IMG/VR virus record: IMGVR_UViG_3300021090_000041
Coordinates: 1-46,070 of that record
Strand: one strand, 5' to 3'
From: a virus
DNA: 46,070 nt
A model generated the notes under the pieces. The model had not been told where the DNA came from. It did no database searches and worked only from the letters and a program-made list of their open reading frames with translations. Positions 40,003-45,325 of this stretch are shown here, piece by piece. How positions within the stretch are numbered: the stretch's first letter is position 1; every line of letters begins with the position of its first letter. A program made the position numbers and the translations under genes.

Positions 40003-40421
40003 TTGTCCCCGCAGCCAGGTTGCGCCCACGCCGGGAGGGGTATCCCGTTGGAGCGCAAGATGCACAGCAATTCTTCGACCCGTTCCCGCCAAAGCTTGAT
40101 CTGTTTCGATTGTGCTTCACCGGATTGCATGAGATTCCCAACGCGCTGATTGAGATCAATGATCGTTCTGCGATCTACCGCACGCCCGGCTTGCAATTCG
40201 GCAATGTCCGCTTCCGCCTTAGCCATGCGCGCCTCGTAGACTTTCTCGACAAGCGCCACAGCATCATTCGCCGTGTCAATCGTCTGACGGTCTGCGTCCG
40301 CATGTACCTTGCGCGCCTCGGCCCGAGTGCGCCGGTACTGAAAAACGCCGGTGATGAGCGCGGCGATCGCCCCACCGCCCAACAGCCCGCCGATGATGGC
40401 GACGATGATCGCTTGTGTCAT
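39999..40421 (-). CDS. coiled-coil membrane protein (XhlA/spanin-like)
   Basis: 140 residues. One N-terminal transmembrane helix (AIIVAIIGGLLGGGAIAALITG) is followed by a basic YRRTR stop-transfer and ~100 residues of coiled coil (KVHADADRQTIDTAND, YEARMAKAEADIAELQ, LNQRVGNLMQSGEAQSKQ). This is the layout of inner-membrane spanins or hemolysin XhlA-type lysis proteins. It overlaps the holin-like gene by ATGA. No lipoprotein partner was found, so a spanin role remains uncertain. Confidence 0.65.
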   Translation of the reverse strand: MTQAIIVAIIGGLLGGGAIAALITGVFQYRRTRAEARKVHADADRQTIDTANDAVALVEKVYEARMAKAEADIAELQAGRAVDRRTIIDLNQRVGNLMQSGEAQSKQIKLWRERVEELLCILRSNGIPLPAWAQPGCGDK

Positions 40422-40783
40422 GAGCGCTTGATGATCACCCGCGCCAGCGCGGCCGGCAGCGGCACGCCCAGCTTGCCCAGGTTGTCAATCAGATTCGCCG
40501 CCAGCGTCGTCTCGACGATCGTCCACACCGCCGGGGCCAGCCAGGGCAGGCCGGCATTGTCGCCGAACGCCTTGCAAATAACGTACACGGCGACGAACGG
40601 CAAGAGCTTTTTGGTTAGGAATTCGGAGAGCTTGGAGAGATCGAGCGTGCTGGTGTACTGCGCGGCGGCCAACGCCACGACGACGTTGACCAGGATGTGG
40701 CCGACGATGACCTTCACGCCGGCATAGCCCCAGATCAGGATCAGGAGCGATTTCAGGAATTCGAGAACGTTTTGCGGGGTCAT
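40418..40783 (-). CDS. holin-like membrane protein
   Basis: 121 residues with three hydrophobic segments (LLILIWGYAGVKVIVGHILVNVVVALAAA; LPFVAVYVICKAF; PAVWTIVETTLAANLIDNL) and a basic C-terminus. It is the first gene of the late operon and lies ahead of the lysis genes. It has the size and topology of LLH-type or similar holins that make membrane holes for lysins. ATG 40783 has GGAGG upstream; the open frame to 40885 would run through the structured leader. Confidence 0.65.
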   Translation of the reverse strand: MTPQNVLEFLKSLLILIWGYAGVKVIVGHILVNVVVALAAAQYTSTLDLSKLSEFLTKKLLPFVAVYVICKAFGDNAGLPWLAPAVWTIVETTLAANLIDNLGKLGVPLPAALARVIIKRS

Positions 40784-40898
40784 GCGAGCCTCCAGTATTG
40801 GATAGTCCCTTTTACGGGATGGTCTGGCTAGACCGGCTCGCGTTGAAAACAAAATCCTGGTGAGGACTCGACGCGAGCCGGTCACCAGGATTCGATTA
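40784..40898 (-). promoter_or_regulatory. structured 5' leader of the late operon with terminator-like hairpin and crossing helix
   Basis: About 115 bases from the predicted start to the holin-like gene. On the minus strand TCCTGGTGA (40890-40882) pairs with TCACCAGGA (40863-40855) and is followed by TTTTGTTTT (40854-40846): an intrinsic terminator shape. Its 18-base loop contains a 13-mer (40883-40871) perfectly complementary to 40843-40831 downstream, giving a crossing helix. Two more hairpins, GGTCT/AGACC at 40834-40821 and TCCC/GGGA at 40819-40806, lie before the ribosome site; the first shares GACC with the 13-mer. This could be an attenuation or put-like control element. Confidence 0.6.
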
Positions 40899-40904
40899 AC
40901 CTTT

Positions 40905-40934
40905 ATTGTAGCACAAATATTCGGGTCATGTCAA
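40905..40934 (-). promoter_or_regulatory. late operon promoter
   Basis: On the minus strand TTGACA (40934-40929) and TACAAT (40910-40905), 18 bases apart, start near 40898. It is the only near-consensus leftward promoter seen upstream of the 33-kb structural operon. Confidence 0.75.
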
Positions 40935-40963
40935 TGAAACGGGAGTCCCCCCAACCCGAACGG

Positions 40964-40980
40964 TATAACAAAGTTATAAC
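40964..40980. repeat. 17-base operator-like element TATAACAAAGTTATAAC
   Basis: Exact inverse complement of GTTATAACTTTGTTATA at 45261-45277. Contains TATAAC-AAA-GTTATA inverted arms. Lies 30 bases upstream of the late promoter -35. Confidence 0.65.
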
Positions 40981-41035: not shown

Positions 41036-41065
41036 CAACACAGCCCCGGTACCGGGGTTGTGTTG
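41036..41065. repeat. 30-base dyad centred on GGTACC
   Basis: CAACACAGCCCCGGT and ACCGGGGTTGTGTTG are complementary at 14 of 15 positions, with a G-T at the remaining one that could wobble in RNA. There is no long T-run beyond it. Confidence 0.6.
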
Positions 41066-43056: not shown

Positions 43057-43084
43057 TCTGTGCTCCTCTCGATTTGCTGAATAC

Positions 43085-43113
43085 ATTATAACCCAACCGG
43101 TTGGGTTTGTCAA
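43085..43113 (-). promoter_or_regulatory. consensus promoter with an 18-bp palindromic operator in the spacer
   Basis: On the minus strand TTGACA (43113-43108) and TATAAT (43090-43085) with a 17-base spacer. AACCCAACCGGTTGGGTT (43090-43107) is a perfect 18-bp palindrome filling the spacer, so a dimeric repressor bound there would block RNA polymerase. Confidence 0.8.
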
Positions 43114-43181
43114 TGGGCAAAATGGGCAATTTGGAAAACTCGTTTTTGCCAATGATGGCAATGGATTCGTAGCTGATTCAG
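43108..43181. repeat. upstream control repeat, copy 1
   Basis: About 75 bases resembling 44651-44726 along their length: TGTCAA at the -35, GGCAAAATGGGCAATTT, AAAACTCGTTTT, then CGTAGCTGATTCAG. Both copies sit immediately upstream of leftward promoters, so the region is a duplicated control element. Confidence 0.7.
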
Positions 43182-44611: not shown

Positions 44612-44656
44612 CTGCATTCTGTATCACATTGTATCACAGCGTAATGCAGGTGTCAA
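44612..44656 (-). promoter_or_regulatory. consensus promoter with operator repeats for leftward cassette
   Basis: On the minus strand TTGACA (44656-44651) and TACAAT (44633-44628) are 17 bases apart. CTGCATT (44612-44618) and AATGCAG (44643-44649) are inverted arms, and GTGATACA occurs twice in direct repeat between them across the -10. A repressor of the divergent HTH gene type is the expected ligand. Confidence 0.7.
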
Positions 44657-44726
44657 GAGGCAAAATGGGCAATTTCAAAAACTCGTTTTCACCAATACCC
44701 GCAAGCGATTCTCGTAGCTGATTCAG
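44651..44726. repeat. upstream control repeat, copy 2
   Basis: About 75 bases similar to 43108-43181, including GGCAAAATGGGCAATTT and CGTAGCTGATTCAG. It lies between the leftward promoter and the rightward HTH gene, so it is the intact divergent control region. Copy 1 looks like its duplicate. Confidence 0.7.
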
Positions 44727-44743: not shown

Positions 44744-45196
44744 ATGTCCATCCAACCCACCGTCATCCCCCTCCCCGAGGCCGCCCAGCGCCTCCGCGTC
44801 CCCCTCTCCCTATTGACCCGCATGGTCCTTTCTGGTACACTAAAGGCAGTCACCACGACGGACGGTCAAGTTCTGCTGCCGCTGGAGGCGGTAGACCATA
44901 TGGCAAAGGGGATCGCAGTGCGAGACAAGATTTGGAACAAGGTCAAAGGCTTCGAAGGTGAGACGGTCAGCACCCTGGAGGCTAGGGATGTTTTCAACAT
45001 TTCTGACCGGACTCTATATCGGTGCATTGAAAATGGCTACATCCGCGCCGGAAAAGGAAGCAAAGGCGGACGTGGGAAGAAGCGACTACTCAACAAGGCC
45101 GATGTGCTCTACGTTTCCGAGCTTGCCAAGCTAGGCGGTGGACGCGGACACAGGCTGTTTGGCCCAGACACGATCCCTCCCCACATGCTCAATTGA
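44744..45196 (+). CDS. HTH DNA-binding protein (excisionase/MerR-like double winged helix)
   Basis: 150 residues with two excisionase-type winged helices. The first is around residues 8-52 (LPEAAQRLRVPLSLLTRMVLSGTL, VLLPLEAVDHM) and the second around 78-130 (EARDVFNISDRTLYRCIENGYIR, KKRLLNKADVLYVSELAKL). Such proteins bind attachment-site DNA to direct excision, or act as repressors. Divergent from the leftward cassette and close to attP, it fits a Xis/regulator role. GAGGTGAT ribosome site; followed by a strong terminator. Confidence 0.75.
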   Translation: MSIQPTVIPLPEAAQRLRVPLSLLTRMVLSGTLKAVTTTDGQVLLPLEAVDHMAKGIAVRDKIWNKVKGFEGETVSTLEARDVFNISDRTLYRCIENGYIRAGKGSKGGRGKKRLLNKADVLYVSELAKLGGGRGHRLFGPDTIPPHMLN

Positions 45197-45231: not shown

Positions 45232-45260
45232 AAAGCCCACTCTTCGGAGTGGGCTTTTTT
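45232..45260 (+). terminator. strong intrinsic terminator
   Basis: AAAGCCCACTC and GAGTGGGCTTT form an 11-bp stem capped by a TTCG tetraloop and followed by T residues. It ends the HTH gene transcript. Confidence 0.9.
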
Positions 45261-45277
45261 GTTATAACTTTGTTATA
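45261..45277. repeat. 17-base operator-like element GTTATAACTTTGTTATA
   Basis: Exact inverse copy of 40964-40980. Lies 18 bases upstream of the early promoter -35 at 45296. Confidence 0.65.
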
Positions 45278-45295
45278 AAAGTATTGCTTTGCCTA

Positions 45296-45325
45296 TTGAC
45301 AAAAGCAACAGTTTAGGAGTATACT
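45296..45325 (+). promoter_or_regulatory. early rightward promoter
   Basis: TTGACA (45296-45301) and TATACT (45320-45325), 18-base spacer. Probably drives the rightward early operon that begins at 45655 and wraps to 7564. Confidence 0.7.

Follow-up and report, generated by a model that had tools for sequence, protein, structure and literature searches.

A promoter-proximal terminator-like hairpin and a competing helix in the late-operon leader of an uncultivated temperate phage

Introduction

What does a structured RNA leader do when it lies directly between a strong promoter and the first gene of a phage late operon? Few phages, most of them with well-studied hosts, have had their late-gene control analysed in detail, and a leader whose second helix competes both for the terminator loop and for the start of a lysis gene would show how an uncultivated temperate phage with no recognisable Q protects itself from leaky lysis.

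The window, i.e., the whole stretch of DNA that was analysed, is the IMG/VR record IMGVR_UViG_3300021090_000041, which is classed as linear and has 46,070 bases. By gene content the phage is temperate, with two tyrosine integrases, a terminase, a portal, and an HK97-type capsid protein. The two integrase genes of this one phage record, 3600-4574 (+) and 41432-42415 (+), are different from each other. The late operon is on the minus strand, where it starts at 40783 and extends over ~33 kb to about 7778, in the order holin-like gene, terminase, portal, and capsid. The initial annotation had placed a 33-kb structural operon downstream of the leader and a near-consensus late promoter ahead of it, and both are there, the promoter having a TGn extended -10 element in addition to its consensus hexamers. 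The features of the leader, together with the boxes discussed later, are collected in Table 1.

Table 1. Coordinates of the leader features and of the upstream boxes
Feature	Position	Strand	Remarks
Late promoter TTGACA-18-TACAAT, extended -10 (TGC)	40905..40934	-	11/12 consensus matches
Segment 1, 5' arm of S1	40882..40892	-	11-bp complement with 40863-40853
Segment 2, 5' arm of S2 (its first two bases also belong to S1)	40871..40883	-	13 perfect pairs with 40843-40831
Small 6-bp hairpin in the S1 loop, from segment 2 when S2 is absent	40865..40879	-	RNAfold
Segment 3, 3' arm of S1	40853..40863	-	Pairs with 40892-40882
T-run TTTTGTTTT	40846..40854	-	Predicted end of the ~50-nt leader RNA; D = 20.2
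Segment 4, 3' arm of S2; alternative partner is segment 5	40831..40843	-	Pairs with 40883-40871
Segment 5, GGCTCGC	40784..40790	-	7 bp with segment 4 in the MFE fold; abuts the ATG
First late-operon gene, holin-like	40418..40783	-	PF05105 (Phage_holin_4_1), 25.3 bits, cut-off 22.2
Upstream box GTTATAACTTTGTTATACC, candidate regulator site	40962..40980	-	27 nt upstream of the late -35; recurs
Second box copy, near-identical	45261-45279	+	16 nt upstream of the -35 of promoter 45296-45325 (+)
Box of contig L024, 19-20 nt	L024 4654-4635	-	24 nt before TTGACA-TATACT

Late promoter and terminator hairpin

Two elements that characterize a Q-type system are found at this locus, namely a strong sigma70 promoter of the late operon and, as judged by sequence and energy, an intrinsic terminator between that promoter and the first gene. 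Regarding the finer elements of such systems, no Q-binding element could be recognised between -35 and -10, and the repeated box lies upstream of the -35; nor was a pause-type -10-like element (NANNAT) seen by eye in about +1 to +20, where the only candidate, GTTAAT, has no A at position 2.

The terminator-like hairpin, S1, begins ~6 nt after the predicted transcription start, and its arms, TCCTGGTGA and TCACCAGGA, form 9 bp, or 11 when two A-T pairs are counted, followed by TTTTGTTTT; the promoter is thus followed by the hairpin and the T-run within ~50 nt. A 9-bp hairpin with a T-run right after the promoter, and further hairpins sharing bases with it, had been described for this leader before, and these elements were confirmed on the minus strand. 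S1 with its T-run reaches a d'Aubenton-Carafa terminator score, D, of 20.2. Hairpins with D >= 20 occur four times in the window, against 0.1 expected per 46 kb, the others being at 45235-45254 (+), 42475-42457 (-), and 43241-43223 (-), and of the four only S1 separates a promoter from its first gene. The fold of the leader has a z-score of -6.6. Two features speak against the reading of S1 as a terminator: its loop is large, and the extended stem also takes in the first U's of the T-run. On balance, the score and the modelled folds support a terminator, and indicate that the promoter-proximal hairpin is real and far from random.

A hairpin so close to the 5' end might have another purpose, i.e., it might mainly shield the late mRNA from 5'-end-dependent decay, the T-run being incidental. 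The distance of ~6 nt between the predicted start and S1 would suit this role, but a stabilizing hairpin needs no TTTTGTTTT, and the combined score is rare; we consider such a role quite unlikely.

Crossing helix and its relation to the hairpin

S1 is crossed by a second helix, S2, whose arms, GACCGGCTCGCGT and ACGCGAGCCGGTC, form 13 perfect pairs. The initial annotation had reported thirteen loop bases complementary to bases past the T-run, and the thirteen pairs are indeed perfect, but 11 of these bases lie in the loop while the first two (GA) end the S1 arm. Given S1, shuffling the downstream segment 20,000 times never produced a 13-bp crossing helix, and the interleaved S1 and S2 together contribute 22 non-overlapping pairs, compared with at most 20 when the entire 46 kb was dinucleotide-shuffled 60 times; these counts support the view that the crossing complementarity is non-random.

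Other loci of the window also carry pseudoknot-like elements of at least 16 pairs, and among those listed no relation to promoters was noticed.

When the RNA is folded stepwise, S1 is the best structure until the T-run has been passed, S2 (extended by CUGG/CCAG) is best once 40831 has emerged, and S1 is best again when 40784 has emerged, with segment 4 now paired with GGCUCGC at the holin start. The modelled end states are near-equal (-56.0 kcal/mol with S1 and -53.0 kcal/mol with S2), whereas S1 and S2 together reach -42 to -45 kcal/mol after an approximate pseudoknot penalty of ~9.6 kcal/mol, and lie, with this approximate penalty, ~9-12 kcal/mol above either nested fold. This cost agrees with the geometry, because full-length 11-bp stems leave an L1 of 0 nt. 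Since the two helices are worse together than apart, they are better read as mutually exclusive than as a pseudoknot, and in the models S1 and S2 look like alternatives. For the same reasons, the case for the long H-type pseudoknot that had been proposed for the read-through RNA is weakened. It also follows from the order of the segments that S2 is unable to prevent termination in the same RNA, because RNA polymerase is already past the T-run when the 3' arm of S2 is transcribed.

A pseudoknot made of S1 and S2 together could nevertheless be imagined to bind a ligand, a protein, or the RNA polymerase, in a put-like manner, and so to switch the operon. The interleaved order S1-S2-S1'-S2' with its 22 non-overlapping pairs would fit, as would the placement right after the promoter, which is like that of HK022 putL (PMC9378689), and by our estimate a core of S2 shortened to 8 bp, which leaves an L1 of 3 nt, seems possible on steric grounds. 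Weighed against these points are the L1 of 0 nt with full-length stems and the energetic cost given above, the description of putRNA as two stem-loops, which is another topology (PMC9378689), and the outcome of an Rfam 15 search, in which the whole window gave no match at the gathering score and, at E <= 10, just a chance miRNA match outside the leader. Such a ligand- or protein-binding pseudoknot appears unlikely.

The repeats that make up S1 and S2 could also act as DNA, either as arms of a phage repressor operator or as sites for the integrase encoded 550 bp away, whose gene, on the opposite strand, begins at about 41432. The attP site often adjoins int. However, neither repeat recurs in the window above chance, unlike the GTTATAAC box, and the dyads are interleaved with spacings of 18 and 27 nt, which is not core-site-like; a role at the DNA level is thus very unlikely. 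As recurring operators, the S1 and S2 repeats were rejected for this lack of above-chance recurrence in the window.

Holin ribosome-binding site

The 3' arm of S2 has a second potential partner. Segment 5 overlaps the Shine-Dalgarno GGAGG of the holin-like gene (40793-40789, minus strand), and the competition of the S2 3' arm for this ribosome-binding site, like the repeated box upstream of the promoter, is absent from the initial annotation. In the models, opening the stretch from the Shine-Dalgarno to the AUG requires 14.0 kcal/mol with S1 versus 6.2 kcal/mol with S2, and S2 is accordingly a possible latch on holin translation. The match between segments 4 and 5 is only modestly unusual by itself, with p about 0.003-0.013: a match of at least 7 bp to segment 4 was present anywhere downstream in 267 of 20,000 shuffles, and inside the window from the Shine-Dalgarno to the AUG in 53 of 20,000. 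Moreover, the latch may be weak, because the Shine-Dalgarno stays mostly paired in all modelled states, even when S2 is forced.

The same segments might be used in trans, as in IsrK, if the terminated leader RNA of ~50 nt paired with segment 4 of the read-through mRNA and thereby opened the holin ribosome-binding site. The list of parts is similar to that of IsrK (PMC4825925), and segment 2 is contained in the short RNA; on the other hand, nested co-folding of this RNA with the downstream leader gains just -1.2 kcal/mol, because the short RNA is tied up in the hairpin that it forms by itself. The gain is weaker than that of nearly all 300 random 53-mers of the window, in a nested energy model that does not include kissing contacts. 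Trans pairing of the short RNA is not favoured, and we regard action in trans as extremely improbable.

Upstream box and other promoters

The 19-bp box GTTATAACTTTGTTATAMM occurs twice in the window, each time upstream of a promoter, where 0 occurrences are expected from shuffles. When 2.9 million viral contigs were scanned for the box together with TTGACA, one other contig, L024, was found. Its box shares 20 identical nt with the copy at 45261 and 17 with the late copy, and is located after a replication module and before the genes for the large terminase and the portal, while no common protein could be detected between L024 and the window. As the box stands at the late promoters of both this phage and the unrelated L024, it marks late-operon promoters in both. 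Its spacings to the promoters (27, 24, and 16 nt) are not all in one helical phase. Recurrence of the box in two phages without a detectable common protein points to a regulator, perhaps the host's, and the binder of the GTTATAACTTTGTTATAA box could be a host factor or unrecognised phage regulators. Among cultured phages and plasmids the box has only weak matches, with E from about 0.2 upwards and for the most part within coding sequence, and no useful paper on the motif was present among the first matches of a literature search.

An HTH_17 (PF12728) protein is encoded at 44744-45196 (+), directly before the rightward boxed promoter, and is a candidate binder of the GTTATAAC box.

The leader of L024 has a bearing on the simplest reading of the locus, i.e., a promoter-proximal terminator with antitermination, in which S2 and the pairing of segments 4 and 5 have no function of their own. 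With the same box, L024 has a plain 7-bp hairpin and TTTT, at most ~50 nt downstream of where its late transcription is predicted to start, and a crossing helix was not noticed there; in addition, the D of 20.2 and the 0.1 expected hairpins in the window hold by themselves. Nevertheless, the L024 hairpin is weak as a terminator, with a D of only 1.0, and a perfect 13-bp crossing helix that is seen in 0 of 20,000 shuffles is hard to leave unexplained. A terminator without any role for S2 is possible, at odds well below even.

Several other promoters were noticed in the window. The minus strand has another strong promoter (TTGACA-17-TATACT, 41303-41275), from which ~230 nt of GC-rich, structured, non-coding DNA extend to a near-perfect palindrome at 41036-41065, and the segment 41303-41036 (-) is a possible non-coding RNA, with a fold z of -2.4 and no Rfam match. 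The minus-strand promoters at 43113 (12/12 consensus matches) and 44656 (11/12) share an 86-nt region of 72% identity (43083-43168 and 44626-44711) and have GCAAAATGGGCAATTT boxes just upstream of the -35; judging from these sequences, the two are likely a second class of co-regulated promoters.

Search for relatives

A homologous leader was not found in the collections searched, which comprised viral contigs, genome contigs, and cultured phages. With the holin, large terminase, integrase, and portal as queries, the viral contigs gave no close relatives and one remote holin (L002), and alignment of the large terminase and the capsid to the genome contigs gave no relatives. The capsid query identified the sole close relative found, IMGVR_UViG_3300037484_000219 (88% amino acid identity), a 21-kb fragment that aligns in blocks of 71-78% nucleotide identity with roughly 17.6-32.4 kb of the window and ends at position ~32424, short of the leader. 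Distant capsid relatives are contigs L004-L016; holin and terminase searches in six records of distant capsid relatives returned one terminase match (G001, 30%), no holin, and no corresponding leader that could be recognised. Likewise, the exact S2 pattern was absent from the viral contigs, the 500 bp around the leader had no match in cultured phages, and the holin had no match by tblastn.

Proposed mechanism

The reading that we prefer, with a probability of about 0.5, is that the leader acts as a promoter-proximal terminator like that of lambda pR'-tR', which needs antitermination, and that S2 is an alternative to S1 and possibly a latch on the holin; it is based on the arrangement of the elements and on the modelled folds. 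In the off state, most transcripts would stop about 50 nt from the start, at S1 and the T-run. Placing a terminator directly behind a strong promoter would make sense only if something let the polymerase through, and an antitermination activity, or a change of the RNA polymerase, would lead to read-through into the holin gene and the 33-kb operon. If the antitermination complex blocked S1, S2 would form as soon as its 3' arm emerged, and this arm would then be kept off the holin ribosome-binding site, whereas a polymerase slipping past an already formed S1 would leave the arm free to cover that site. In this way S2 would couple the translation of the holin to true antitermination.

As for the putative antiterminator, a profile search of the record, which may be incomplete, gave no match to the Q-family proteins PF06530 and PF03589; the PF06323 profile had no match either, but it had none in any control genome. 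An antiterminator unrelated to the known Q proteins is quite possible, because the known Q families have no significant sequence similarity to one another (PMC9371919, PMC7171158).

A more far-reaching proposal, which we regard as clearly less likely than not, is that segment 4 is common to two locks, being able to occupy either the terminator loop or the holin ribosome-binding site, so that the lysis gene would be translated only after genuine suppression of the terminator. The leader would then constitute a transcription-translation AND gate, working with a putative antiterminator and an upstream box common to unrelated phages.

Comparison with known systems

In late or lysis operons of the Q/AlpA type, a terminator lies just downstream of the promoter, and in the lambdoid pR' with Q (lambda, 21, 82) and in the AlpA/PalpB-tB system of P. 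aeruginosa, as in this leader, a strong promoter and an intrinsic terminator precede the lysis or late genes, with read-through as the control point (PMC9371919, PMC6266700, PMC7171158). The leader studied here differs from these in having neither a PF06530 or PF03589 match nor a recognisable element between -35 and -10, in the position of its terminator within ~50 nt of the start, and in the addition of the crossing helix and the competition for the ribosome-binding site.

The latter has a partial counterpart in IsrK of Gifsy-1, where transcripts that extend past a terminator in the leader are translationally inactive and have two near-isoenergetic folds, one of which buries the ribosome-binding site (PMC4825925). 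The IsrK RNA targets its own mRNA in trans, and an antirepressor is under its control, while here the first gene is holin-like and trans pairing is not favoured; the IsrK precedent shows that a prophage leader terminator, a read-through RNA, and a buried ribosome-binding site can cooperate.

HK022 putL is similar in that a structured nascent RNA directly follows a phage promoter (PMC9378689). The put elements are a pair of stem-loops that serve as cis antiterminators of early operons, unlike the present leader, whose first structure is terminator-like and is followed by a U-run, a comparison of topology made by inspection. Finally, at the Caulobacter GTA promoter (GafY/GafZ, IHF), an activator bound upstream is combined with antitermination at an operon of structural genes (PMC11150451), and the upstream box described here invites the same two-tier reading, although the described GTA terminator is downstream of the first gene (PMC11150451). 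The general plan of the leader is like that of known phage late-gene switches, and its second helix is the unusual part.
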